A stretch of 48,710 nucleotides of DNA from Streptomyces spiramenti (GTDB lineage Bacteria > Actinomycetota > Actinomycetes > Streptomycetales > Streptomycetaceae). A program made the position numbers and the translations under genes. The stretch covers positions 1 to 48,710 of the forward strand of contig NZ_JAAVJB010000014.1 of assembly GCF_012034385.1 (NCBI RefSeq). The letters run 5' to 3'. Positions within the stretch are counted from its first letter, which is position 1; every line of letters starts with the position of its first letter. Below, one piece after another: positions 12,600 to 26,798 of this stretch. A model generated the notes under the pieces. The model saw only the letters and a program-made list of their open reading frames with translations. It had not been told where the DNA came from and made no database searches.

Positions 12600-12857
12600 C
12601 GCCGTGTGAGAGCGGCCCGCACCGCCCCACCCCGCCCGAGCAGCGCCGGGCCGCCGGGCCGCCGCGAACGGGTGAATGAAACGCCCGCCACGGGGCAGGG
12701 GCGGAGCGCGCCTTGGATTTCCCGCCACGGCTCGGCGCACCCATCCGCTGCGTCGCCGGCTACGAATAGTCGGCGAGCCCGCAGTTCGAGGGCGCGCCCC
12801 CTCGACGCGGCCGGCCACCCGCCGCCTGCCGCTGTTCCAAGTTCCGGAGGATGATCC
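12600..12857 (+). other. Intergenic region upstream of sigK
   Basis: Between the reductase terminator and the sigK leader there is no supportable gene. The only clear element is the ECF-type promoter at 12741-12767. Confidence 0.5.
12741..12767 (+). promoter_or_regulatory. Predicted SigK-dependent promoter of sigK (autoregulation)
   Basis: The -35 CCATCC (12741-12746, preceded by AC) and -10 ACGAAT (12762-12767, followed by A) are separated by 15 bases. The same ACCCATCC-N15-CGAATA arrangement precedes both divergent operons at 19969-20058. It resembles the mycobacterial SigK motif as I remember it (CCATCC, CCGAAT). The leader ORF and sigK start about 90 and 160 bases downstream. Confidence 0.75.
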
Positions 12858-12929
12858 ATGCCGCTGCCACCGTCCGGCTTCCGACGCCGGCCCCGCCGTG
12901 CCCACCCGACGGGGGGTGCCCGGGCATGA
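12858..12929 (+). CDS. Possible 23-residue leader peptide coupled to sigK
   Basis: ATG 12858 follows a consensus GGAGG (12846-12850) at 7 bases. The 23-codon frame, rich in Pro and Arg, ends in TGA at 12927-12929. That stop overlaps the sigK ATG (12926) as ATGA, so ribosomes finishing the leader could restart on sigK, whose own ribosome binding site is a less orthodox GGGGGG. No homologue is recognised. The alternative is that the strong ribosome binding site reflects a different, longer sigK start at 12851, but that ATG directly abuts the GGAGG with no spacing. Confidence 0.35.
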   Translation: MPLPPSGFRRRPRRAHPTGGARA

Positions 12930-13510
12930 AGGAGCCGGTGTACATCGGGGAGAACCCCTCGACCGCGCCCGACCTCTCGGAGTTGCTGGTGCGGGTCGCC
13001 CAGGGCGACCACGAGGCATTCGGCAGCGTCTACGACGCCATGTCCGGCCCGGTGTTCGGACTGGTGCGCAGCATCCTCCGCGACCCGGCGCAGTCCGAGG
13101 AGGTGGCGCAGGAGGTCATGGTCGAGGTCTGGCGGAACGCCGCGCGCTACCGCCCGGAGAAGGGCAGCGCCATGGCGTGGACGATGACGTTGGCGCACCG
13201 ACGGGCGGTGGACCGGGTCCGGTCCGCGCAGGCGTCCAGCGACCGGGAGCAGCGGGCCGCGCTCCTGGAGCACACCCCCGCGTTCGACGAGGTGACCGAA
13301 CAGGTCGAGACCAGGCTGGAACGCGAGCAGGTGCGGCGGTGCCTGCGCACCCTGACCGAGCTCCAGCGCCAGTCCGTGACGCTGGCCTACTACCGGGGGC
13401 TGACCTACCGCGAGGTGGCCGAGCTGCTGGCGCTGCCGCTCGGCACCGTGAAGACCCGTATGCGCGACGGTCTGATCCGGCTGCGCGACTGCCTGGGGGT
13501 GACCGCATGA
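12926..13510 (+). CDS. sigK: ECF sigma factor SigK
   Basis: 194 aa. Region 2 spans about residues 31-101 (FGSVYDAMSGPVFGLVRSIL, DPAQSEEVAQEVMVEVWRNA, WTMTLAHRRAVDRVRS) and region 4 about 133-190 (LTELQRQSVTLAYYRGLTYR, LPLGTVKTRMRDGLIRLRD). The paired anti-sigma gene starts in an ATGA overlap, as in mycobacterial sigK-rskA. Cys139 and Cys189, 50 residues apart, occupy the places I recall for the redox disulfide in domain 4 of M. tuberculosis SigK (Cys133/Cys183). An ECF promoter upstream matches those of the neighbouring operons, so positive autoregulation is likely. The name SigK rests on the RskA partner, gene context and the shared promoter motif. Confidence 0.88.
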   Translation: MKEPVYIGENPSTAPDLSELLVRVAQGDHEAFGSVYDAMSGPVFGLVRSILRDPAQSEEVAQEVMVEVWRNAARYRPEKGSAMAWTMTLAHRRAVDRVRSAQASSDREQRAALLEHTPAFDEVTEQVETRLEREQVRRCLRTLTELQRQSVTLAYYRGLTYREVAELLALPLGTVKTRMRDGLIRLRDCLGVTA

Positions 13511-14271
13511 CCGCCGACCTGCACACGCTCGCCGGGGCCTACGTCCTGCACGCGCTGTCGCCGGAGGAGCTGGCCGAGTTCGAACGCCATCTCTCCGACT
13601 GCGACTCCTGCGCGCTGGAGGTCCGCGAGCTGGCCGCAACAACGCAGCGGCTGGGTGCCGCGGTCGCCACCGCCCCACCGCCGGAGATGCGGGTCCGGGT
13701 GCTGCGGCAGATCGCCACCGTGCGGCAGGAGCCCCCGGAGGTGCCGCCGGAGCGCGCCGGGCGGGTCCGTACCCGCCGGATCGGCGGGGTGATCCCCCGG
13801 CTGGTGCTGGCAGCGTGCGTCGCCGGGGCGCTCCTCGGGGGCGGCGTGGCGGCTTGGCAGTACCAGGAGGCGCGGGACGCCCGTGACCAGGCGCAGCTCG
13901 CGGAGCGCTCCAACGACGAGCTCATGGGCGTGCTGACCTCGCCGGACGTCGTGGTGGAGAGCACCGGCCTCGACGACGGCGCCACCGGCACGGTGCTGGT
14001 CTCCGCCGAGCGGGACCGCGCGGTGTTCGTGGCCTCAGGGATGGCGGAACCGCCCGCGGGCATGGTCTACCAGCTCTGGTTCGACGACGACGGCACGATG
14101 CGACCCGGCGGTCTGATGGACCCCGCGGACGGTCCGACCGGCAGCGCGGTGCTGATGGACGGCCCGGTCAACGGCGCGGGCGGCATGGGCATCACCCTGG
14201 AGCCGGCGGGGGGCTCGCCGCAGCCCACCTCCGACCCGCTGCTGGTGATGGCGTTCCCCGAAGCCGGCTGA
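13507..14271 (+). CDS. rskA: Anti-sigma factor RskA
   Basis: 254 aa, ATG in an ATGA overlap with sigK. The N-terminal anti-sigma domain has H28, C32 and C35 in ERHLSDCDSC, a zinc-anti-sigma-like HxxxCxxC. One membrane span lies near residues 97-115 (LVLAACVAGALLGGGVAAW). The extracytoplasmic C-terminal RskA domain contains GMVYQLWFDDDG and MDPADGPTGSAV. The topology fits a membrane anchor that holds SigK until cut by regulated proteolysis, as in the mycobacterial homologue. The gene ends 33 bases from the convergent DUF1295 gene, with no obvious hairpin between. Confidence 0.92.
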   Translation: MTADLHTLAGAYVLHALSPEELAEFERHLSDCDSCALEVRELAATTQRLGAAVATAPPPEMRVRVLRQIATVRQEPPEVPPERAGRVRTRRIGGVIPRLVLAACVAGALLGGGVAAWQYQEARDARDQAQLAERSNDELMGVLTSPDVVVESTGLDDGATGTVLVSAERDRAVFVASGMAEPPAGMVYQLWFDDDGTMRPGGLMDPADGPTGSAVLMDGPVNGAGGMGITLEPAGGSPQPTSDPLLVMAFPEAG

Positions 14272-14304
14272 CCGAGAGGCGCACATGAGCGGGCGCGTAC
14301 GTCG

Positions 14305-15138
14305 TCAGGGCCGGGGGCCGTCCTCGGGACCGGCGTTGCGACGGGGTGGCAGCGGGAAGAAGCCGCTGGTCCGGGCGGCGTACCGATCGAACCCGTCGCG
14401 CTGCGCCATGGTCTTCTCGGTGAGCCGCTTACCGCTCCCGAAGATCAGAAGGAAGCTCATCACCAGCGGTGAGACGACGGTCATGGCGGCGACCTGCCAA
14501 CTGCCGGCCGCCACGAGGAACAGTCCCCACCACACCATGAAGTCCCCGAAGTAGTTCGGGTGGCGTGTCAGCGACCACAGACCGCGATCCATGATCTTCC
14601 CCCGGTTGGCGGGGTCGGACTTGAAGCGGTGCATCTGCCAGTCGCCGACGGCCTCGAAGAAGAGCCCGACCGCCCAGCAGGCGATGCCCACCACCACGAC
14701 CCACCCGAGCGGGCCCGGCAGGTAGGCACCGAACTGGAGCGGCAGCGAGATCAGCCAGACCAGAGCCGCCTGGAGCAGGTAGACCATGCGCAGGGCGTAC
14801 AGCTGCGGATGGCCCGGAGCCTTGGCGAGCATCCGCTCGTAGCGCGGGTCCTCGCCCTTGCCCCAGCTGCGCCACGTCACGTGGCCTGCCAGCCGCACGC
14901 CCCACACCGCGGTGAGGATCGCGATGAGCGTGCGGCGCGCGGTGTCGCCCTCCCCCGCCGAGGCGGCGAAGGTGGTGAGGGCGACCGCGGCGAAGCCCAG
15001 CCCCCACGCGATGTCCACCGTGCGGTGGCGTCCGCCCCGTACGACGGCGACCGCGAAGGTCACCAGCAGCACGAGCAGCGCCGCGCCGGCGCTCAGCGCG
15101 AGGTTGAGCCCGAGGGATCCCCAGGGGTAGTCGGTCAC
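14305..15138 (-). CDS. DUF1295 (steroid 5-alpha-reductase-like) membrane protein
   Basis: 277 aa from the GTG at 15138, which overlaps the upstream methyltransferase stop as GTGA. Seven or so hydrophobic segments are seen. The C-terminal signature RHPNYFGDFMVWWG followed by LLIFGSGKRLTEKTM is that of DUF1295 and isoprenylcysteine methyltransferase/steroid-reductase-like proteins, which bind NADPH or S-adenosylmethionine at this region. It is the last gene of the five-gene operon. Its M. tuberculosis counterpart by order would be Rv0446c beside sigK. It probably reduces or modifies a lipid made by the two methyltransferases upstream, but the reaction is not known. Confidence 0.88.
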   Translation of the reverse strand: MTDYPWGSLGLNLALSAGAALLVLLVTFAVAVVRGGRHRTVDIAWGLGFAAVALTTFAASAGEGDTARRTLIAILTAVWGVRLAGHVTWRSWGKGEDPRYERMLAKAPGHPQLYALRMVYLLQAALVWLISLPLQFGAYLPGPLGWVVVVGIACWAVGLFFEAVGDWQMHRFKSDPANRGKIMDRGLWSLTRHPNYFGDFMVWWGLFLVAAGSWQVAAMTVVSPLVMSFLLIFGSGKRLTEKTMAQRDGFDRYAARTSGFFPLPPRRNAGPEDGPRP

Positions 15139-16454
15139 GAGGCAGCACACTCCGGGTACCAGTCGCGCAGCGTCCCGGTCAGGCCGCTGCCTCCGTCACC
15201 GTCGGGGCGGACCGCGAGGATCTGGTCCACGCCCATGCGGCGTTCCTGGAAGGCGAGACCGGACCCCGCGAGGTAGAGGCGCCAGACGCGCGCGGTCTCC
15301 GTCCCGGTGAGCGAGACGATCTCGTCCCAGTTGGCCTCCAGCGCCTCCGCCCACGCCGCGATGGTGTGGACGTAGTGCTCGCGCATGGAGTCCACCGAGC
15401 GGACCTCCAGTCCGGCGCCCTCCAGGAGTCCGACGGTCTCACCGACGGGCCGCATGTGCATGTCGGCGGCGATGTACGCCTCGATGAACGCGCCGCCGCC
15501 GGGGGCGATGGCCCCGCGGGACATCTGCTGGATCAGCAGCCGGCCGCGGGGGCGGAGCATGCGGTGCATCATGGCGGCGAAGCCCGGGTACTCGGCGTCC
15601 CCGACGTGCTCGCCCATCTCCAAGGAGACGGCGGCCTCGTACCAGCCGCCGGGGATGTCGCGGTAGTCGCAGAGCTGGACCTCGACGAGGTCCTCCAGCT
15701 TCCGCTCGCGGACCTGTTCGCGCACGTACTCGGCCTGTTCACGGGCGAGGGTCACCGAGGTGACCTTGGCGCCGTGCCGCTCGGCGGCGTACAGCGAGAG
15801 CGAGCCCCAGCCGCAGCCCACGTCCAGCAGCCGGGTGCCCGGCCGCAGGCCGAGCTTGCGGCAGACCAGCTCCAGCTTGTCGCGCTGGGCCTCCGGCAGC
15901 CCGTAGCCGCGCTCGCCCGGCGGGCGGGTCCAGTAACCGCAGGAGTACGCCATCGCGGGATCGAGCAGCAGCGCGTAGAACTCCGGGGGGAGGTCGTAGT
16001 GGTGGCTGATCGCCTTGCGGTCCCGGCCGCGGCTGTGCAGGGCGCCGTTGAGGCGGACCTCGCCGGCGGGCGCCTGCGGTTTGGGGCCGACCGCCCCGAG
16101 CCGGGCGAGGACACGGAGTGCCGCCGCCTTGTCGGCGAGGGTGGGCGCGGGGGCGGAGCCGGACTCGCGGACGGTGCGCAGCGCCGCGGAGAGCCCCTCG
16201 CGCAGGTCGCCGTGGACGTCGAGCTCCCCGGTGACGTAGGCGCGGGCCAGGCCGAGCTCACCCGGCTGCCACAGCAGATGGCGCAGCGCCCGGCGGGAAC
16301 GCAGGACCACCAGCGGTGCGTCCGCGGGTCCGGCCTCGCTGCCGTCCCAGGTCCGTACCCGGACCGGCGACGGCCCCTGCAGGTACTGCTGGAGGAGCTG
16401 GATCAGCTGGGAGGCCGCACCTCGTGCGGTTGTCGTCGGCAGGGCTGGTGTCAC
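15135..16454 (-). CDS. Cyclopropane-fatty-acyl-phospholipid synthase-family methyltransferase (with conserved Cys)
   Basis: 439 aa, GTG start in a GTGA overlap with the gene before it. The enzyme family adds a methyl or methylene from S-adenosylmethionine to the double bond of a membrane phospholipid acyl chain. Visible motifs are HHYDLPPEFYALLLDP (151-166), YSCGYW (170-175, with Cys172 at the family's active-site position), the SAM motif LLDVGCGWGSLS (209-220) and SLEMGEHVG (Glu and His of the bicarbonate site). The C-terminal region YVHTIAAWAEALEANWDEI is typical. It is one of two adjacent family members and the one that looks like a full cyclopropane or methyl-branching synthase. Confidence 0.92.
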   Translation of the reverse strand: MTPALPTTTARGAASQLIQLLQQYLQGPSPVRVRTWDGSEAGPADAPLVVLRSRRALRHLLWQPGELGLARAYVTGELDVHGDLREGLSAALRTVRESGSAPAPTLADKAAALRVLARLGAVGPKPQAPAGEVRLNGALHSRGRDRKAISHHYDLPPEFYALLLDPAMAYSCGYWTRPPGERGYGLPEAQRDKLELVCRKLGLRPGTRLLDVGCGWGSLSLYAAERHGAKVTSVTLAREQAEYVREQVRERKLEDLVEVQLCDYRDIPGGWYEAAVSLEMGEHVGDAEYPGFAAMMHRMLRPRGRLLIQQMSRGAIAPGGGAFIEAYIAADMHMRPVGETVGLLEGAGLEVRSVDSMREHYVHTIAAWAEALEANWDEIVSLTGTETARVWRLYLAGSGLAFQERRMGVDQILAVRPDGDGGSGLTGTLRDWYPECAAS

Positions 16455-17839
16455 TGGGGAACGTCCTTCGGGCGGGTGTCGGCCGGGGTGGCGGTGTCGG
16501 GGCGGGGAGCGAGCAGGAACTGCTGGACGTCGAGGTAGCCGGAGCGGAACCCGGCCTCGGAGTAGGCGAGGTAGAGGACCCACATGCGGCGGAAGGTCTC
16601 GTCGAAGCCGAGGGCGTCGACGTCCGCGGCGCGCTCGGTGAAGCGCTCCCGCCACAGGCGGAGTGTCTCGGCGTAGTGCGGCCCGTAGCGGTCGGCGCGG
16701 GCGACGTCGAGCCGGGTGTTCTCGGCGGTGAGGCGGCGCACCACCTCGGTGGAGGGCAGCAGGCCGCCGGGGAAGATGTACTTCTGGATCCAGGTGTAGG
16801 TGCGGCGGCTGGCGACGAGCCGGTCGTGCGGCATGGTGATGGCCTGGAGCGCGACCCGCCCGCCGGGGGCGGTGAGCCGGTCGAGGGTCGCGAAGTAGGT
16901 TCCCCAGAACTCGGCGCCGACCGCCTCGATCATCTCGACGCTCACGACGGCGTCGTAGGTTCCCTCGACGGAGCGGTAGTCCTCGACACGGATCTCGACG
17001 CGGTCCGACAGGTCGGCCTCACGCACGCGCTCGCGCGCCAGTTGCGCCTGCTCGACGGAGAGCGTGACGCTGACGACCTCCGCCCCGCGTCGCGCCGCGC
17101 GCAGCGACAGCTCGCCCCAGCCGGTGCCGATCTCCAGCACCCGGGTGCCCTCGGTGACGCCCGCCAGGTCCAGTACGCGGTCGATCTTGCGGTGCTGGGC
17201 GGCGGTCAGCAGCGACCACTCGGCGGGGAAGCCGCGGAAGACGGCGGACGAGTAGCTGAGGGTCTCGTCGAGGAAGAGGCCGAACAGGTCGTTGGAGAGG
17301 TCGTAGTGGCGGCCGATGTTCTCGCGGGAGGCGGCGGGGGTGTTCCGGCCGGCGGCCGGCTGGCCGGGCGCCCAGAGTCGGCGCAGTCGCTGGAGCGGCC
17401 CCGGCACCAGGGTGGCCGCGTGGTCGGCGATGACGGTGAGCACGCCGACGAGGTCGGGGGCGTCCCACTCACCTGCCATGTAGGACTCGCCGAAGCCGAT
17501 CGTGCCGGAGGTGCCGACCCGGCGGAGGAAGGCGTCGGGGTCGCGGATCTCCAGCACCGGCCCGCCCGTTCCCAGTCTTCGACCGTCGGGGAAGCGGGTG
17601 TGCAGCGGCAGGCGTCGCAGCGCCGCCTCCAGGATCCGCCGGGCGACGGCGCGGTGGGCGCGCGAGCAGGTGGGCACGTGGGCCACGCCGGGCCACCGGC
17701 CGGGGTCGACAGCCGCCCGGATCTGAGCAGGCGTGCGGGAGTCGCCCGCCGCGGCGGCCGACCGGGCGGGGTGCGGCTGGGCGGCGAGGGGCGTCCGCTC
17801 GGGCTGCGCGGGCGCTGCGGGGGTTCGGGGCGTGGTCAC
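16451..17839 (-). CDS. Cyclopropane synthase-like methyltransferase (UfaA1-like, active-site Cys replaced)
   Basis: 462 aa, GTG 17839 in a GTGA overlap with the DUF1365 stop, with GGAAGG about 9 bases upstream. Residues 1-50 are low-complexity Pro/Ala. The SAM-binding motif is VLEIGTGWGELS (234-245), and NIGRHYDLSNDLFGLFLD (174-191) is the family lead-in. The usual SCGYW segment is replaced by SYSSAVF (195-201), so the conserved Cys is Ser. The Glu of VSVEMIEAVG is kept, but the following His is Ala. In gene order it matches ufaA1 (Rv0447c) of the M. tuberculosis sigK locus. It may catalyse a different methylation from its neighbour or form a heteromer with it. Confidence 0.9.
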   Translation of the reverse strand: MTTPRTPAAPAQPERTPLAAQPHPARSAAAAGDSRTPAQIRAAVDPGRWPGVAHVPTCSRAHRAVARRILEAALRRLPLHTRFPDGRRLGTGGPVLEIRDPDAFLRRVGTSGTIGFGESYMAGEWDAPDLVGVLTVIADHAATLVPGPLQRLRRLWAPGQPAAGRNTPAASRENIGRHYDLSNDLFGLFLDETLSYSSAVFRGFPAEWSLLTAAQHRKIDRVLDLAGVTEGTRVLEIGTGWGELSLRAARRGAEVVSVTLSVEQAQLARERVREADLSDRVEIRVEDYRSVEGTYDAVVSVEMIEAVGAEFWGTYFATLDRLTAPGGRVALQAITMPHDRLVASRRTYTWIQKYIFPGGLLPSTEVVRRLTAENTRLDVARADRYGPHYAETLRLWRERFTERAADVDALGFDETFRRMWVLYLAYSEAGFRSGYLDVQQFLLAPRPDTATPADTRPKDVPQ

Positions 17840-18630
17840 TGCATACCTTCCTGCTGGTGGTTCCGGGGCCGGCGCTGTACCGGCAGGCCCTTGAGATAGA
17901 GGCGGATGCCGTGGAGACGGATGGCGGCCGACGCGGCCAGCGGGGCCCACGGGTGCCGCGCCGCTGCGCGCAGCAGGCCGACGGGGCCGCCGGGTCCGGG
18001 GCTGCCGCGCAGGGTGGCGACGAACGGCTTGCCGTCGGGCCGGTCCAACCGGACGGTGACGTCGAGTCGTTCCCCCGGTTCGGGGAGTCTCATCCGGTAG
18101 TCGCCGTCCACGGGGTTGAAGGGGGAGACGTAGAACTTCTTGGGGGTGGTGGCGCGGTGGTGTGCGTCGGGGTGCAGCAGGTAGGCGTGGCGCTCGCCGT
18201 AGGTGTTGTGCACCTCGGCCACGACGCAGGCGGTCGTGCCGTCCGCCCGGTGGCACCAGTAGAGGGTCAACGGGTTGAAGACATGGCCGAGGACGCGGGC
18301 GTGGGTGAGCATCAGCACCGGGCCGCCGGGGGCATCCTCGCCGTGGGCGACGAGGAACCGCTCCAGCCCCGCGCGGAGAGTGGGGGCGGTGCCGCCGAAG
18401 TGGTCACGGGGGTCGAAGCGGGCGAGGGGCCGCAGGGCGAGCGGCAGCCGCGGCAGGTGGTCGAGGTCGACGAGCCACATGTAGGTGCGGTGCCGAAGCC
18501 GGTACCGGACGGGGCCGGTGCGGGCGTGGCGGACCTCGCAGCGGTAGAGCCGGGGGATGGTGCCGGCGTCCGCTGACCGTGCGGCGGCGTCGGGCGCGGG
18601 TCCGGGGGCGGGCCCGGGCACGGGGTTCAC
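17836..18630 (-). CDS. DUF1365 domain-containing protein
   Basis: 264 aa from the GTG at 18630 (GTGA overlap with the FAD oxidoreductase stop). Family landmarks are YRCEVRHARTGPVRYRLRHR, the LVDLDHLPRLP segment, RFDPRDHFGG, HARVLGHVFNPLTLYWCH, VAEVHNTYGERHAYLL and KKFYVSPFNPVDGDYRM. DUF1365 proteins nearly always sit between an FAD-dependent oxidoreductase and a cyclopropane-synthase-like methyltransferase, as here, in the mycobacterial sigK locus and in the Rhodobacter RpoE-ChrR regulon. They are presumed to act on fatty acyl chains, but no reaction is proven to my knowledge. No signal peptide or membrane span stands out. Confidence 0.92.
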   Translation of the reverse strand: MNPVPGPAPGPAPDAAARSADAGTIPRLYRCEVRHARTGPVRYRLRHRTYMWLVDLDHLPRLPLALRPLARFDPRDHFGGTAPTLRAGLERFLVAHGEDAPGGPVLMLTHARVLGHVFNPLTLYWCHRADGTTACVVAEVHNTYGERHAYLLHPDAHHRATTPKKFYVSPFNPVDGDYRMRLPEPGERLDVTVRLDRPDGKPFVATLRGSPGPGGPVGLLRAAARHPWAPLAASAAIRLHGIRLYLKGLPVQRRPRNHQQEGMQ

Positions 18631-19904
18631 CAGGTCACCCCCAGGGCCTCTGCCGCCGCGACGCCGGAGGCGCAGCCGTCCTCGTGGAACCCCCAACCGT
18701 GGTGCGCACCGGCGAAGGAGGTGACCCGGCCGCTCAGCGAGGGCAGCTCGCGCTGGGCCGCCACGGACTCGGGCGTGTAGACGGGGTGGTGGTAGACCAT
18801 GCGGGCCAGCACACGGTCGGAGTCGACCCGCTCCTCGCCGTTGAGGGTGACCACATGGGTGCCGGGCCCGGGGAGCCGCTGCAGCCGCGTCATGTCGTAG
18901 CTGATGCGGACCTCGCCGGCGGGGCTGTCGCAGGAGGGCAGTTGGTAGTTCCAGGAAGCCCGGGCACCGCTGTGGCGGGGCAGCAGCGAGGTGTCGGTGT
19001 GCAGCAGGGTGGGGTTGCGGGAGTAGCGGAAGGCTCCGAGGACGCGGCGTTCGTCGTCGGTCGGGTCGCTGAGCAGCTCCAGTGCCTGGTCCGCGTGGCA
19101 GGCGACGACGACGGAGTCGTAGTGCTCGGTCACCCCTGCCGCGTCGGTGATCTCGACGCCGGCGCCACCGCCGAGCCGGCGGATGCCGCGCACCGGTGTC
19201 CCGGTGCGGATCTCCGGGATGTACTTCGCGACGCGCTCCACGTAGGAGCGGGAGCCGCCGGTGACGGTGCGCCAGGTCGGCGAACCCGACACGGCGAGCA
19301 TCCCGTGGTGGTCGAGGAAGCGGAACAGGTAGCGGGCGGGGTAGCGCAGCGCGGTGACGGGGTCGCACGACCAGACCGCGGAGACGACGGGCGCCATGAA
19401 GTGGCTGGTGAAGTACGACGAGTACCGGCCGGCGGCCAGGAACTCGCCGAGCGTGGTGTCCTGGGACCGGGAGTCGTCGGCGGCGAGCAGCCGGCGGGCC
19501 TGGCGGTGGAAGCGCGGCACCTGCGCCAGCATCCGCAGGTAGCGGGGGTCGGCGACGGAGGCGGGGCGGGCGAGGAGCCCGCGCGCGCCGCGGGCCCCCG
19601 CGTACTCCAGGCCGCACCCCTCGCACCGGACGGACATGCTCATCTCGGACTCCTGCGTCTCGACGCCGAGTTCGTCGAAGAGCCGCAGCAGCCGCGGATA
19701 GGTGCGCTCGTTGTGGACGATGAACCCGGAGTCGATCCGCTCGAACCCCGCGCCGGTGTCGACGTCGTGGGTGTGGGCGTGGCCGCCGAGCCTGTCGTCG
19801 GCCTCGTACAGGGTCACCCGATGGTCCTGGCGCAGCACGTAGGCGGCGGTCAACCCCGACACACCACTGCCCACCACTGCTGACCTGGGCTTTTCCCGTG
19901 TCAT
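18627..19904 (-). CDS. FAD-dependent amine oxidase-like oxidoreductase
   Basis: 425 aa, ATG 19904 with GGAGG about 8 bases upstream. The N-terminal dinucleotide-binding motif VVGSGVSGLTAAYVL (10-24) is followed by the ribose-binding Glu in YEADDRLGGHAHT (33-45), as in flavin-containing amine oxidases and phytoene-desaturase-like enzymes. The C-terminal FAD segment SLSGRVTSFAGAHHGWGFHE is intact. It is first in the five-gene operon and carries the operon's ECF-type promoter about 65 bases upstream. It probably oxidises or desaturates an acyl lipid ahead of methyl transfer. By order it corresponds to Rv0449c of the M. tuberculosis sigK region. Confidence 0.92.
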   Translation of the reverse strand: MTREKPRSAVVGSGVSGLTAAYVLRQDHRVTLYEADDRLGGHAHTHDVDTGAGFERIDSGFIVHNERTYPRLLRLFDELGVETQESEMSMSVRCEGCGLEYAGARGARGLLARPASVADPRYLRMLAQVPRFHRQARRLLAADDSRSQDTTLGEFLAAGRYSSYFTSHFMAPVVSAVWSCDPVTALRYPARYLFRFLDHHGMLAVSGSPTWRTVTGGSRSYVERVAKYIPEIRTGTPVRGIRRLGGGAGVEITDAAGVTEHYDSVVVACHADQALELLSDPTDDERRVLGAFRYSRNPTLLHTDTSLLPRHSGARASWNYQLPSCDSPAGEVRISYDMTRLQRLPGPGTHVVTLNGEERVDSDRVLARMVYHHPVYTPESVAAQRELPSLSGRVTSFAGAHHGWGFHEDGCASGVAAAEALGVTW

Positions 19905-19968
19905 TCGACTGCCTCCGACGCTCGCCGTCAGCCCCCGCGGGGGCCTGGTGTCACCACTGTCGAGAGGT

Positions 19969-19995
19969 ATTCGGTGCTGTGGGCCGAATGGATGG
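19969..19995 (-). promoter_or_regulatory. Predicted SigK promoter of the FAD oxidoreductase-to-DUF1295 operon
   Basis: Read on the minus strand: -35 CCATCC (19995-19990, preceded by AC), a 15-base spacer, and -10 CCGAAT (19974-19969) followed by ACC. It is identical in hexamers and spacing to the plus-strand promoter at 20032-20058, giving two back-to-back matched promoters. Confidence 0.8.
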
Positions 19996-20031
19996 GTCGT
20001 GGCGCCAAGATAATTCGATCGAGTGATGGAC

Positions 20032-20058
20032 CCATCCGGAGCAGCCACCTCACCGAAT
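20032..20058 (+). promoter_or_regulatory. Predicted SigK promoter of the molybdoenzyme-fasciclin operon
   Basis: -35 CCATCC (20032-20037, preceded by AC), a 15-base spacer, and -10 CCGAAT (20053-20058) followed by ACC. Transcription should start near 20065, about 25 bases before the preferred GTG at 20090. Confidence 0.8.
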
Positions 20059-20089
20059 ACCGGTCGTGAGTGAGACCGAGGAGACAGAC

Positions 20090-21724
20090 GTGGCGCCCGC
20101 CGCCGGCCGTGGCGCCGGGCGGTGGGAGCGACGCCTGTTCGCAGCGGGCAGCGGCGTCCTCGCCGCCGTGGCGGCGCTCGCCGTGGCGGAGTTGTGCGCC
20201 GCGCTCGTGCGACCGGAGGCGCGACCGGTCACCGCGGTCGGCGGGGCGATCATCGACCGCACGCCGATCGCCGTCAAGGACTGGGCGATCCGCACCTTCG
20301 GCACCGCGGACAAACTGGTGCTGCAGATCGGCATCCTGACGCTGCTCACCCTCTTCGCCGTGGCCGTCGGCCTGATCGCGCTGCGCAGCCTGCGGGCCGG
20401 CGCCGTGGGGGCCGCTCTCTTCGGAGTGTTCGGCGCGGTCACCGCCGCCGGACGTCCGGGAGGCAGCGCGCCCGACGCGGTGCCCTCGCTGGTCGGGGGT
20501 GTCGCCGCGGTGGCGGTGGTCGTGCTGCTCGTCCGGACGCTGCGGCCGGGACGCCGCTCCGCGACGGACGCGGCAGAGCCGACGGACACCGCCGAGGCGA
20601 CGGAGGCCCCGGCCGCCGCCGGGGTGCTCTCCTCGCTGGACCGCCGTCGCTTCCTACGCGCGGCCTCGGTGGCGGCGGCAGCGTCCGCCGGCTCCGGGTT
20701 GCTGGGCAACCGGCTGCTGAGCAGCGGGGACGCGGAGGCGGAGGCGGCGCGTGACTCCCTGACGATTCCCCGGCCGGGCGATCCGGCACCGCCACTGCCG
20801 CCCGGCGCCGATCTGGAGATCGACGGCCTTGCGCCGTTCACCACCCCGAACAAGGACTTCTACCGGGTCGACACCGCACTGCGGGTGCCGCGCCTGGACG
20901 CCGCCGAGTGGCGCATGAGGATCTTCGGCCGGGGCGTGGACCGCGAACTGGAGCTGACCTACCGGGATCTGCTGGATCGTGAGCTGGTCGAGCGGGACAT
21001 CACCCTGACCTGCGTCTCCAACCAGGTCGGTGGCCCCTACGTGGGCAACGCCCGCTGGATCGGTGTGCCGTTGGCGCCGCTGCTCCGCGAAGCGGGGGTA
21101 CGCCCGCCCTCGGAGGGCGGTCCGGCGGACCAGTTGGTCGCCCGATCCGTCGAGGGGATGACCCTGGGCAGCCCGGTCGACACCGTCATGGACGGCCGGG
21201 ACGCCATGCTCGCGGTCGGCATGAACGGGGAGCCGCTGCCTTTCCGCAACGGTTTTCCGGTCCGGATGGTTGTACCTGGTTTGTACGGGTATGTGTCGGC
21301 TTGCAAGTGGCTGTCCGAGATCGAGCTCACCACCTTCGACGACTTCGACGTCTACTGGGTGGAGCGTGACTGGGCGGCCCGCGGCCCCATCAAGACCATG
21401 TCGCGGATCGACACCCCCCGCGGGTTCGCGACGATCCCCGCCGGCACCGTTCCGGTCGCCGGGGTGGCGTGGGCGCAGCACACAGGCATCGACGGTGTCG
21501 AGGTCCGGGTGGACGGCGGCGAGTGGCGCGAGGCGCGTCTCGCCCCGGCGCCCAGTGAGGACACCTGGCGCCAGTGGGTCTGGGACTGGGAGGCCGAGCC
21601 CGGCTCCCACCGGCTGGAGGTCCGCGCCACGGACAGCTCCGGCGAGACCCAGACCGAGGAACGTGTCGGCACGGTGCCCGACGGCGCCACCGGCTGGCAC
21701 TCGGTGGTGGTCACCGTGGACTGA
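20090..21724 (+). CDS. Membrane-anchored sulfite oxidase-fold molybdopterin oxidoreductase
   Basis: 544 aa from GTG 20090, chosen because GAGGAG (20078-20083) lies 6 bases upstream. A GTG at 20066 in the same frame would be nearly leaderless from the predicted promoter. Four hydrophobic spans (about 14-40, 77-98, 102-122, 132-150) are followed by a linker with a twin-arginine-like DRRRFLRAASVAAAA (184-198). Then comes the sulfite oxidase Mo domain: PFTTPNKDFYRVDTALRVP (249-267), LTCVSNQVGG with the Mo-ligand Cys308, and LYGYVSACKWL. A C-terminal dimerisation domain closes the protein. The catalytic part should face outside the membrane. Rv0218-type mycobacterial proteins share this layout. 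Substrate unknown; sulfite or oxidised protein sulfur are possibilities. Confidence 0.9.
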   Translation: MAPAAGRGAGRWERRLFAAGSGVLAAVAALAVAELCAALVRPEARPVTAVGGAIIDRTPIAVKDWAIRTFGTADKLVLQIGILTLLTLFAVAVGLIALRSLRAGAVGAALFGVFGAVTAAGRPGGSAPDAVPSLVGGVAAVAVVVLLVRTLRPGRRSATDAAEPTDTAEATEAPAAAGVLSSLDRRRFLRAASVAAAASAGSGLLGNRLLSSGDAEAEAARDSLTIPRPGDPAPPLPPGADLEIDGLAPFTTPNKDFYRVDTALRVPRLDAAEWRMRIFGRGVDRELELTYRDLLDRELVERDITLTCVSNQVGGPYVGNARWIGVPLAPLLREAGVRPPSEGGPADQLVARSVEGMTLGSPVDTVMDGRDAMLAVGMNGEPLPFRNGFPVRMVVPGLYGYVSACKWLSEIELTTFDDFDVYWVERDWAARGPIKTMSRIDTPRGFATIPAGTVPVAGVAWAQHTGIDGVEVRVDGGEWREARLAPAPSEDTWRQWVWDWEAEPGSHRLEVRATDSSGETQTEERVGTVPDGATGWHSVVVTVD

Positions 21725-21812: not shown

Positions 21813-22499
21813 ATGAACACCCGTATCCGCCGCACCGCCGTCGCCGTCGCCACCGCCGCCATCCTGCCGTTCTCGCTGGCCGCCTGCTCCTCCGACAGCG
21901 ACGACGACAACGGTTCGGACGCCGCGGAGACCGGCCAGGACAACGGTGGCGGCACCGACCAGGACGACACCGACGGCATGGACGACATGGACGACATGGA
22001 CGGTGACGACGCGGGCGAGACCGACGCCGTCGCCGCGCCGTTCGGCCCTGCCTGTTCCGGCGTGCCGACCGACGGCCCGGGCAGCTTCGAGGGCATGGCC
22101 CAGGACCCGGTCGCCACCGCCGCGTCCAACAACCCGGACCTCTCCACCCTGGTCGCCGCCGTGACCGCAGCCGGCCTGGTCGACACCCTGAACGACGCCC
22201 CCGAGCTGACCGTCTTCGCCCCGGCCGACGCCGCGTTCGCCGAGATCCCGGAGGAGGACCTCAACGGGCTGCTGGAGGACCAGGACGCCCTCACCGACGT
22301 CCTGACCTACCACGTCGTGGGCGAGCGCCTGGCGCCGGAGGACCTGGATGGCGAGCACACCACCCTCCAGGGCGACACCGTCACCGTCGCGGGCTCGGAC
22401 GAGGACTTCACGGTCAACGACGACGCGACCGTCGTCTGCGGCAACGTCCAGACCGCCAACGCCACCGTCTACATCATCGACGGCGTGCTGATGCCCTGA
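21813..22499 (+). CDS. Fasciclin-domain lipoprotein (MPT83/MPT70-like)
   Basis: 228 aa, ATG with AAGGAGAG at 21800-21807. A lipobox (SLAAC, Cys25) ends the signal peptide, so the protein is a lipid-anchored surface protein. A Ser/Asp/Gly-rich acidic linker with DDMDDMDGDD follows to about residue 75. The single fasciclin domain has GMAQDPVATAASNNPDLSTL, LTVFAPADAAF, DVLTYHVVGE and the ending NATVYIIDGVLMP, very close to the mycobacterial antigens MPT70 and MPT83. Those two are SigK-controlled in M. tuberculosis. It follows the molybdoenzyme after 88 bases without its own SigK motif, so co-transcription is likely. A hairpin closes the unit. Confidence 0.93.
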   Translation: MNTRIRRTAVAVATAAILPFSLAACSSDSDDDNGSDAAETGQDNGGGTDQDDTDGMDDMDDMDGDDAGETDAVAAPFGPACSGVPTDGPGSFEGMAQDPVATAASNNPDLSTLVAAVTAAGLVDTLNDAPELTVFAPADAAFAEIPEEDLNGLLEDQDALTDVLTYHVVGERLAPEDLDGEHTTLQGDTVTVAGSDEDFTVNDDATVVCGNVQTANATVYIIDGVLMP

Positions 22500-23873: not shown

Positions 23874-23953
23874 GGCGCGTTCGCGCAATCCATCGCATGG
23901 CAAGAGGTATCGGTTGACAGGTACACACCCGATCACGCGCCGTCTACATTCTG
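23874..23953 (+). promoter_or_regulatory. Duplicated upstream regulatory block, copy 1
   Basis: 80 bases that align without gaps to 25537-25616 with 67 identities by my count. Shared cores are GCAATCCATCGCAT, CAAGAGGTAT and CAGGTACACACC. A TTGACA at 23914 and TACATT at 23945 lie 25 bases apart, too far for a standard sigma70 promoter, so exact hexamers are left open. Confidence 0.65.
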
Positions 23954-23981
23954 GTCACCCTCACAACACAAGGAGAACAGA

Positions 23982-25148
23982 ATGCGCCTCAAGGGACGTA
24001 CTGTTGCCATCGGTTCAGCGCTGGCGGCCTCCGCCCTCGCACTGAGCCTGGTGCCGGCCAACGCCTCCTCGGAGCTTCCCTCCGCCGAGACCGCCAAGGC
24101 GGACGCCCTCGTCGAGCAGCTGCCGGCCGGCATGGTCGACGCCATGGAGCGCGACCTGGGCGTACCCGCCGCCGAGGTCGGCACCCAGCTGATAGCCGAG
24201 CACGAGGCCGCCGTCCTGGAGGAGTCCCTCAGCGAGGAACTCTCCGGCTACGCGGGCTCCTGGCTCGTGGAAGGCACCACCGAGCACGTGGTCGCCACGA
24301 CCGACCGGGCCGAGGCCGCCGAGATCACCGCGGCGGGCGCCACCGCCACGGTGGTCGAGCACAGCCTCGCCGACCTCGAGGCCGTCAAGGACATCCTCGA
24401 CGAGGCCGCCACCACCAACCCGGACTCCGCCGCCCCGGTCTGGTACGTGGACGTCACCACCAACGAGGTCGTGGTCCTCGCCTCCGACGTTCCCGCCGCC
24501 GAGGCGTTCGTCGAGGCCAGCGGCGCCGACGCCTCCACCGTGCGCGTCGAGCGCTCCGACGAGTCCCCCCAGCCCTTCTACGACCTGGTCGGCGGCGACG
24601 CCTACTACATCGGCGGCGGACGCTGCTCGATCGGCTTCTCGGTCCGCCAGGGCTCCACCCCCGGCTTCGTCACCGCCGGCCACTGCGGCAGCGTGGGCAA
24701 CGCCACCACCGGCTTCAACCGCGTCAGCCAGGGCACCTTCCGCGGCTCCTGGTTCCCCGGCCGCGACATGGCCTGGGTCGCGGTGAACAGCAACTGGACG
24801 CCCACCTCCCTCGTCCGCAACTCCGGCTCGGGCGTGCGCGTCACCGGCTCGACCCAGGCGACCGTCGGCTCCTCCATCTGCCGCTCCGGCTCCACCACCG
24901 GCTGGCGCTGCGGCACCATCCAGCAGCACAACACCTCCGTCACCTACCCCCAGGGCACCATCACCGGCGTGACCCGCACCTCCGCGTGCGCCCAGCCCGG
25001 TGACTCCGGCGGCTCCTTCATCTCCGGCACCCAGGCCCAGGGCGTGACCTCCGGCGGCTCGGGCAACTGCTCGATCGGCGGCACCACCTTCCACCAGCCG
25101 GTCAACCCGATCCTGTCCCAGTACGGCCTCACCCTCGTCCGAAGCTGA
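23982..25148 (+). CDS. Secreted S1-family serine protease (alpha-lytic/streptogrisin type), basic paralogue
   Basis: 388 aa, ATG with AAGGAG at 23970-23975. A signal peptide covers about residues 1-28 (SALALSLVPANA) and a prodomain about 29-201, whose role in this family is folding assistance and inhibition. The mature chymotrypsin-fold protease starts near DLVGGDAYYIGGGRCSIGF. The triad is H234 (TAGHCG), D262 (GRDMAW) and S342 (GDSGGS), and six Cys fit the three family disulfides. The mature region is rich in Arg and poor in acidic residues. It is 51 bases longer in coding length than, minus the stop, and closely similar to, the next gene up to 25148, but close relatives differ mainly in charge. 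A hairpin ends the transcript. Confidence 0.95.
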   Translation: MRLKGRTVAIGSALAASALALSLVPANASSELPSAETAKADALVEQLPAGMVDAMERDLGVPAAEVGTQLIAEHEAAVLEESLSEELSGYAGSWLVEGTTEHVVATTDRAEAAEITAAGATATVVEHSLADLEAVKDILDEAATTNPDSAAPVWYVDVTTNEVVVLASDVPAAEAFVEASGADASTVRVERSDESPQPFYDLVGGDAYYIGGGRCSIGFSVRQGSTPGFVTAGHCGSVGNATTGFNRVSQGTFRGSWFPGRDMAWVAVNSNWTPTSLVRNSGSGVRVTGSTQATVGSSICRSGSTTGWRCGTIQQHNTSVTYPQGTITGVTRTSACAQPGDSGGSFISGTQAQGVTSGGSGNCSIGGTTFHQPVNPILSQYGLTLVRS

Positions 25149-25536: not shown

Positions 25537-25616
25537 GGCACGTTCGGGCAATCCATCGCATCACAAGAGGTATTCCTTGGCAGGTACACACCCCATCACC
25601 CGGCGGCTACGTTCTG
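25537..25616 (+). promoter_or_regulatory. Duplicated upstream regulatory block, copy 2
   Basis: Gapless partner of 23874-23953. The cores GCAATCCATCGCAT, CAAGAGGTAT and CAGGTACACACC are retained, while TTGACA has become TTGGCA and TACATT has become TACGTT. It ends 33 bases before the start of protease 2. Confidence 0.65.
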
Positions 25617-25649
25617 CTTACCCCCACAAGCAAGTGCAAGGAGAACTGC

Positions 25650-26798
25650 ATGCGTCACACAGGCCGTAACGCCATCGGCGCCGCGATAGCCGCCTCCGCG
25701 CTCGCATTCGCGCTGGTCCCCAGCCAGGCCTCCGCGAACGACACCCTGTCCGAGCGGGCCGAGGCAGCAGTCGCCGACCTTCCCGCCGGTGTGCTTGACG
25801 CCATGGAGCGTGACCTGGGTCTGAGTGAGCAGGAGGCGGGCCTCCAGCTGGTGGCGGAGCATGACGCCTCGCTGCTCACCGAATCCCTCTCCGCCGACCT
25901 CGACGCCTTCGCCGGTTCCTGGCTCGCGGAGGGAACGGAGCTGGTGGTCGCCACCACCAGCACGACCGAGGCCGCCGAGATCACCGAGGCCGGCGCCACG
26001 GCCGAGGTCGTCGACCACACGCTGGCCGAGCTAGACAGCGTCAAGGACGCACTCGACAAGGCCGCCGAGTCCCACGACACCACCGACGCGCCGGTCTGGT
26101 ACGTCGACGTCACGACCAACGGCGTCGTCCTCCTGACCTCCGACGTCGCCGAGGCCGAGAGCTTCGTCGAGGCAGCCGGGGTGAACTCCGCCGCGGTCGA
26201 CATCCAGACCTCCGACGAGCAGCCCCAGGCGTTCTACGACCTGGTCGGCGGCGACGCCTACTACATGGGCGGCGGACGCTGCTCGGTCGGCTTCTCCGTG
26301 ACCCAGGGCTCGACCCCGGGCTTCGCGACGGCCGGCCACTGCGGCACCGTCGGCACCAGCACCACGGGCTACAACCAGGCGGCGCAGGGCACCTTCGAGG
26401 AGTCCTCGTTCCCCGGTGACGACATGGCCTGGGTGTCGGTCAACAGCGACTGGAACACCACCCCGACCGTGAACGAAGGCGAGGTGACGGTCTCCGGCTC
26501 CACCGAGGGTGCCGTCGGCGCCTCCATCTGCCGCTCCGGTTCCACGACCGGCTGGCACTGCGGCACGATCCAGCAGCACAACACCTCGGTGACCTACCCG
26601 GAGGGCACCATCACCGGTGTCACCCGTACCTCGGTCTGCGCCGAGCCCGGTGACTCCGGCGGCTCCTACATCTCGGGCAGCCAGGCCCAGGGTGTGACCT
26701 CCGGTGGCTCCGGCAACTGCACCTCCGGCGGCACCACCTACCACCAGCCCATCAACCCGCTGCTCTCGGCCTACGGCCTTGACCTGGTGACCGGCTGA
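25650..26798 (+). CDS. Secreted S1-family serine protease, acidic paralogue
   Basis: 382 aa, ATG with AAGGAG at 25638-25643. The domain plan equals that of the upstream paralogue: signal peptide about 1-29 (LAFALVPSQASA), prodomain to about 197, and mature protease from DLVGGDAYYMGGGRCSVGF. The triad is H230 (TAGHCG), D258 (GDDMAW) and S336 (GDSGGS). The surface differs: where copy 1 has FRGSWFPGRD and SGSGVRV, this one has FEESSFPGDD and NEGEVTV, making it acidic. The gene and its promoter block clearly arose by tandem duplication. The extracellular role is presumably protein degradation for nutrients. Confidence 0.95.
   Translation: MRHTGRNAIGAAIAASALAFALVPSQASANDTLSERAEAAVADLPAGVLDAMERDLGLSEQEAGLQLVAEHDASLLTESLSADLDAFAGSWLAEGTELVVATTSTTEAAEITEAGATAEVVDHTLAELDSVKDALDKAAESHDTTDAPVWYVDVTTNGVVLLTSDVAEAESFVEAAGVNSAAVDIQTSDEQPQAFYDLVGGDAYYMGGGRCSVGFSVTQGSTPGFATAGHCGTVGTSTTGYNQAAQGTFEESSFPGDDMAWVSVNSDWNTTPTVNEGEVTVSGSTEGAVGASICRSGSTTGWHCGTIQQHNTSVTYPEGTITGVTRTSVCAEPGDSGGSYISGSQAQGVTSGGSGNCTSGGTTYHQPINPLLSAYGLDLVTG

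Follow-up and report, generated by a model that had tools for sequence, protein, structure and literature searches.

In mycobacteria, the extracytoplasmic function (ECF) sigma factor SigK and its anti-sigma factor RskA control a regulon with MPT70 and MPT83, and the SigK targets include well-known tuberculosis antigens. The signal that starts the SigK cascade is given as unknown in PMC7509140. In Rhodobacter sphaeroides, another ECF pair, sigmaE-ChrR, was reported to control rpoE-chrR, a photolyase, cfaS, RSP_1091, RSP_1090, a short-chain dehydrogenase, a fasciclin, rpoHII, folE2, cycA and others (PMC7074977). Two of these targets, RSP1091 (ufaD) and RSP1090 (ufaO), are located in the rpoE region (PMC7380195; PMC7074977); UfaO is a DUF1365 protein, and full activation of sigmaE by singlet oxygen requires the furan-fatty-acid genes (PMC6852236). 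Here we analysed a stretch of 48,710 nucleotides (nt) from Streptomyces spiramenti (contig NZ_JAAVJB010000014.1, positions 1 to 48,710; hereafter the window), which very probably holds a compact SigK-RskA regulon of three units with one promoter box before each: sigK-rskA, a lipid operon of the order ufaD-ufaO-CMAS-CMAS-DUF1295, and a molybdoenzyme-fasciclin pair. This reading, drawn from sequence comparison, fits the proposal of an earlier note on this DNA that one sigma factor drives its own gene plus seven effector genes, namely the five minus-strand genes, the molybdoenzyme gene and the fasciclin gene; the last has no box of its own in the window and is presumably co-transcribed.

Predicted promoter boxes in the window and in the genome

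The boxes and genes of the proposed regulon are listed by position (FAD, flavin adenine dinucleotide).

12739..12768, plus strand: SigK-type box before sigK, ACCCATCC-N15-ACGAATA
12926..13510, plus strand: sigK, ECF sigma factor (NF007228 SigK; 4nqw)
13507..14271, plus strand: rskA, membrane anti-sigma factor with HX3CX2C motif (RskA_C, RskA_N)
14305..15150, minus strand: DUF1295 membrane protein, last gene of the lipid operon (family match)
15135..16454, minus strand: CMAS-type acyl methyltransferase (family match)
16451..17839, minus strand: CMAS-type acyl methyltransferase (family match)
17836..18630, minus strand: DUF1365 protein, UfaO homologue (PF07103, 235 bits; relatives in rpoE loci)
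18627..19904, minus strand: FAD oxidoreductase, UfaD homologue, first gene of the lipid operon (family match; relatives in rpoE loci)
19968..19997, minus strand: SigK-type box before the lipid operon (motif match, conserved in relatives)
20030..20059, plus strand: SigK-type box before the molybdoenzyme gene (motif match, conserved in relatives)
20066..21724, plus strand: molybdoenzyme of the sulfite-oxidase family, GTG start, predicted leaderless (PF00174)
21813..22499, plus strand: MPT70-like fasciclin protein, lipobox-like LAAC by eye (PF02469; 1nyo)

Three copies of CCATCC-N16-CGAATA were found in the window, at 12741 (plus), 19995 (minus) and 20032 (plus), compared to a mean of 0.02 in shuffled sequence and none of 100 shuffles reaching three. 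The positions and the equal spacing were those of the earlier note, N16 here being its N15 between longer boxes. A scan of CCMATCC-Nx-CGAAY with x from 8 to 25 gave three matches at 16 and none at any other spacing, which bears out the claim that the window holds no further pair. The two divergent copies, said to share an extended match, indeed both read CACCGAATACC; they stand back to back with their −35 boxes 36 bases apart. The note also states that the hexamers agree with the mycobacterial SigK motif, but none of the texts consulted prints that motif.

The genome-wide search that the note had suggested as a check confined the exact full motif to these three sites, with no fourth copy in the assembly (5.7 Mb, 474 contigs, 99.2% complete). 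One mismatch admitted three further places, and no exact CCAATCC-type site was present in this genome. Degenerate sites with up to two mismatches were uninformative (145 matches vs. 74 in the reversed control). A search for CCATCC-N14-18-CGAAT added two places, which were set aside by eye, one lying inside a long open frame and the other in an IstB-like insertion sequence gene. Elsewhere in the genome (C433, L312), a weak but correctly spaced ACCCGTCC-N16-CGAAC was seen by eye upstream of an alpha/beta hydrolase relative, and several Streptomyces (L116-L119, L111) have a box at an alpha/beta hydrolase gene; this may be a fourth, weak SigK site.

The sigma factor and its anti-sigma factor

The sigma factor matched the curated NCBIfam SigK model NF007228 with 298.9 bits (cut-off 226), and its best solved relative was SigK of Mycobacterium tuberculosis (4nqw; E 4.7e-50; 51% identity over 182 residues), in agreement with its earlier naming as SigK. 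SigmaE was only the second match in the PDB (E 5.7e-19 vs. 4.7e-50). Together with the RskA_C domain of the partner and the lack of a cupin ChrR, this places the pair outside the sigmaE-ChrR group (ECF11). Cysteines 133 and 183 of M. tuberculosis SigK affect its contact with RskA (PMC7509140); both are present here, aligned as C139 and C189, and each was conserved in 75 of the 84 SigK proteins collected. The rskA product matched RskA_C (PF10099) with 103.4 bits and RskA_N (PF22618) with 28.9 bits, the latter narrowly above the cut-off of 27; a PDB search at E 0.001 returned no relative of RskA. As judged from these family and structure matches, the pair belongs to the known SigK-RskA kind. A Streptomyces coelicolor protein called SigK in PMC9205884 was rejected as a SigK, being of SigB type.

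The HX3CX2C motif of the window RskA was also found downstream of sigK in most loci (76/84, in an all-frame scan of a stretch of fixed length, in which some misses may simply be out of reach). The eight loci without it include L205, L208 and L210, which we take to be mycobacteria-like from their gene order. As M. tuberculosis RskA does not depend on a zinc motif (PMC7406223), the mycobacterial RskA looks like a derived form.

The window thus shares with the mycobacterial system the SigK and RskA families and an MPT70-like fasciclin. In the mycobacteria-like L205, FAD oxidoreductase, DUF1365, CMAS and DUF1295 genes run into sigK-rskA behind a ACCCATCC-N16-CGAAT box, whereas in the window the lipid genes form a unit apart from sigK-rskA, two CMAS genes are present, the fasciclin gene has a molybdoenzyme gene as its partner, and RskA retains the motif not seen in L205, L208 and L210. 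The closest solved relative of the fasciclin was MPT70 itself (1nyo; E 8.8e-37). The molybdoenzyme fell below the cut-offs of named enzymes and was assigned to the sulfite-oxidase family.

Conservation of the box across sigK loci

Forty sigK loci from genomes of the same taxonomic order as the window were taken from the SigK model matches, and a box was called at a score of at least 11/12 against CCMATCC-N16-CGAAY, a refinement of the original motif (most relatives carry CCAATCC). Boxes were found before sigK in 35/40 loci, before the FAD-oxidoreductase operon in 12/13 and before all 18 readable molybdoenzyme genes. These counts, made on up to 400 bases, omit the window and the motif-picked L123, L124 and L131; with them they become 38/44, 14/15 and 20/20. 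Leaving out L104, L105, L112 and L114, whose boxes were known before the choice, they become 31/36, 11/12 and 17/17. Shuffled 300-base upstream stretches reached the score in 0.45% (sigK), 1.0% (FAD oxidoreductase) and 0.5% (molybdoenzyme) of cases. The molybdoenzyme figure of 20/20 (window and L131 included) was obtained by reading upstream to the first aligned residue; stretches ending at the extrapolated start gave 7/20.

Exact boxes in 80 loci (1.5 Mb) peaked sharply at N16, with 85 copies compared to 7 at N17; none of the remaining spacings between 8 and 25 had more than 5, and the reversed pattern did not occur in these loci. The 85 preceded sigK (31), molybdoenzyme (16), FAD oxidoreductase (8), fasciclin (5), DUF1365 (2) and other genes (23). 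Across a genus sample, CCAATCC-N16-CGAAT was present in 80/121 genomes, with 171 sites vs. 3 control sites. The boxes upstream of sigK and of the molybdoenzyme-fasciclin unit are thus present and conserved, and binding by SigK is predicted; the recurrence of one box at the same genes, at one spacing, supports the regulon as the earlier note had drawn it. Two exact boxes, at L125 and L129, were discarded because they look coding, lying inside long opposite-strand frames, as was a recurrent CCATCCACCG...AGCGAATA sequence that by eye appears helicase-coding.

Some points weigh against this reading. The consensus was derived from the same 40 loci used for the order counts, which makes the 40 loci of other families, not used for the consensus, the fairer test: there, in favour of the reading, a box stood directly before sigK in 15/40 and before the molybdoenzyme gene in 8/12. 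A strong box directly before sigK was absent from 5/40 same-order and 25/40 outside-order loci, and 4/32 molybdoenzyme genes had no box in reach, although for one of the four (L180) the upstream stretch was cut short and a box is present there. In several other-family loci molybdoenzyme, fasciclin, sigK and rskA stand in line behind a single box, and some unboxed sigK genes come after boxed molybdoenzyme-fasciclin genes. Because only 15/40 sigK genes outside the order are directly boxed, both the regulon and the singlet-oxygen link discussed below are slightly weakened.

Predicted transcription starts and a leader open reading frame

ECF promoters start some 6–9 nt behind the −10 box. A box was in reach for 28 of the 32 molybdoenzyme genes, and the first in-frame start codon lay exactly 7 nt past CGAAN in 27 of these and 6 nt past it in one. 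In the window the GTG at 20066 follows CGAAT by 7 nt. Since the start codon coincides with the expected start of transcription, the molybdoenzyme messenger RNA (mRNA) should begin at its start codon and is probably leaderless, a rule that gives an exact and checkable transcription start. No start-site data for this locus were present in the available part of PMC8914203.

The region between box and sigK contains one further feature.

12858..12929, plus strand: short leader open reading frame of 23 codons, TGA overlapping the sigK ATG (open reading frame reading)

A leader frame ending on the sigK start codon was seen in 14/53 boxed sigK genes, the window's included (13/52 others).

The lipid operon

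The five lipid-operon genes overlap on the minus strand. In the 80 loci best by sigmaE similarity, mostly from Rhodobacteraceae, relatives of the window FAD oxidoreductase were found in 70 and of DUF1365 in 75. In nine rpoE loci inspected, the FAD oxidoreductase had 34–40% identity over nearly its full length, and the DUF1365 match was partial. No PDB relative of DUF1365 was found at E 0.001. UfaD and UfaO homologues therefore stand together in the window, as expected for the furan-fatty-acid pathway, and with the adjoining CMAS methylase they are likely to form a furan-fatty-acid gene set. The assignment of UfaM is putative, its candidates being known by CMAS family match.

In the open-library literature, furan-fatty-acid genes were not found as SigK targets. 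Streptomyces boxes may have been described earlier. The available part of PMC7074977 mentions both SigK and furan fatty acids without making the genes SigK targets. Within that literature, a connection between SigK and furan-fatty-acid genes and photolyase that parallels the singlet-oxygen regulon appears new.

Likeness to singlet-oxygen and light responses

The target kinds resemble those of sigmaE-ChrR in R. sphaeroides: ufaD, ufaO, a CMAS-type methylase and a fasciclin, with a photolyase and a dehydrogenase in some relatives of the window (for the dehydrogenase and fasciclin the likeness is one of gene kind). The controlling pair differs, the sigma factor being of another group and the anti-sigma C-terminal part being RskA_C rather than cupin; the sigmaE targets rpoHII, folE2, cycA and others were not matched here. 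A photolyase relative lay directly downstream of rskA on the same strand in 9/40 same-order loci. In a further family of the same class, photolyase and NmrA-type dehydrogenase genes are divergent, with two boxes between them (L343, L344) or one (L180, L346); these pairs are near sigK, and in L343, L344 and L346 also near the lipid operon. L343-L346 were chosen because their boxes cluster; the arrangement is seen in three of these four. Photolyase identity was from Pfam for the L180 copy and from tblastn for the others.

A similar gene set is found in the Pseudomonas class II LitR cluster, where phrB and ufaM are induced by light and adjoin genes for a short-chain dehydrogenase and an FAD oxidoreductase (PMC9758184), but there a MerR-type repressor and a LOV photoreceptor are in control and no ECF factor. 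Some published observations agree with the likeness to the singlet-oxygen response: in Mycobacterium kansasii light raised the fasciclins mpk83 and mpk70 six- and threefold (PMC9861118), in a soil actinobacterium RskA decreased under ultraviolet light (PMC8965627), and in R. capsulatus singlet oxygen induced the SigK-like RpoE (PMC7074977).

Because a different ECF pair would control the same effector kinds, we tentatively suggest, with the balance leaning slightly the other way, that SigK-RskA may be the actinobacterial equivalent of singlet-oxygen control in Rhodobacter and that its signal may be light-driven singlet oxygen or the resulting lipid peroxides. Several observations count against this. 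The photolyase of the window's own genome lies elsewhere, beside the dehydrogenase and with no strong box, and 31/40 same-order loci have no photolyase behind rskA. M. kansasii dipZ did not respond to light (PMC9861118), R. capsulatus is reported to lack homologues of RSP_1087-1091 (PMC7074977), and macrophage contact is reported as the only activating condition found for SigK (PMC7509140). If the suggestion holds, the mycobacterial SigK regulon, MPT70 and MPT83 antigens included, would be what is left of a photo-oxidative membrane response, and the mycobacterial RskA a derived form lacking HX3CX2C. A defined regulon that matches a known singlet-oxygen response in content names a SigK signal that is testable in harmless soil bacteria.

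Proposed mechanism and alternative explanations

In the resting cell, SigK would be held by membrane RskA until an envelope signal relieves this hold; RskA may also aid activation, as reported for mycobacteria. Photo-oxidative or lipid-peroxide stress is the likeliest class of signal, and the least certain step of the scheme. Released SigK would transcribe all three units (sigK-rskA, the lipid genes and the envelope redox/fasciclin pair), with the molybdoenzyme mRNA predicted to begin at the GTG start codon. The lipid enzymes would act on the acyl chains of phospholipids by methylation, desaturation and oxygenation, the probable products being furan fatty acids.

The boxes could be real promoters read mainly by another ECF factor, the adjacent SigK being one of several that share the motif. 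SigK paralogues that are themselves boxed do occur in relatives (L104-L106, L112), one genome (G012) gave 8 SigK-like matches and the window's genome two further, weaker ones; since the box precedes sigK itself, tracks sigK-rskA across families and occurs in this genome only at the present locus, we consider this improbable. Still less credible is that the CCCATCC variant marks an altered promoter specificity of SigK in this genome. CCC does stand at all three sites in the window and in L114, whereas most relatives with two or three scored sites have CCA throughout, but several genomes mix C and A, and the region-4 segment of SigK departs from that of CCA genomes only by common substitutions (a single M/L in the case of L087); drift or common descent would be explanation enough. 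That the boxes are chance matches is close to inconceivable: degenerate matches do abound in this GC-rich genome, but the excess over the 0.02 copies expected, the orthologous positions, the fixed distance to the start codon and the spacing peak all contradict chance.

The product of the lipid operon could also be 10-methyl or cyclopropane fatty acids rather than furan fatty acids, which we regard as rather unlikely but as the alternative most worth weighing. CMAS enzymes carry out both kinds of chemistry, and DUF1295 gives reductase-like matches. For M. tuberculosis UfaA1 (Rv0447c), in vitro formation of 10-methylstearic acid has been reported, although the enzyme is noted to have no redox domain (PMC5660069). 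Against this product, the operon opens with adjacent UfaD- and UfaO-type genes, and in R. palustris ufaD, ufaO and ufaM are RPA2571-2569 (PMC7380195). A furan-fatty-acid product under SigK control is thus the preferred reading.

Further boxed genes and neighbouring genes

SigK paralogues divergent to a DUF4331 gene were seen in twelve loci (L104, L105, L106, L108, L110, L112, L292, L295, L296, L298, L301, L306), the shared intergenic stretch being boxed in most of them (Pfam check for L106 only). CHRD-type secreted proteins stand behind boxes in L188, at 10928 (Pfam) and about 12685 (by eye), and in L308 (by eye). A DipZ-like membrane redox protein (DsbD_TM, Thioredoxin_10) is boxed in L206 at 7664, and dipZ is a SigK target in mycobacteria (PMC9861118). 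In L293, L294, L297, L299, L300, L302 and L307, a box lies about 106–114 nt before a conserved anti-sigma-like gene starting MRSLERHRDV, mostly near a distant SigK-like gene, a possible link to a second ECF pathway. Within the window, two serine-protease-like genes have upstream DNA (23880-24010 and 25540-25660) that by eye is near-identical, and are probable tandem duplicates.

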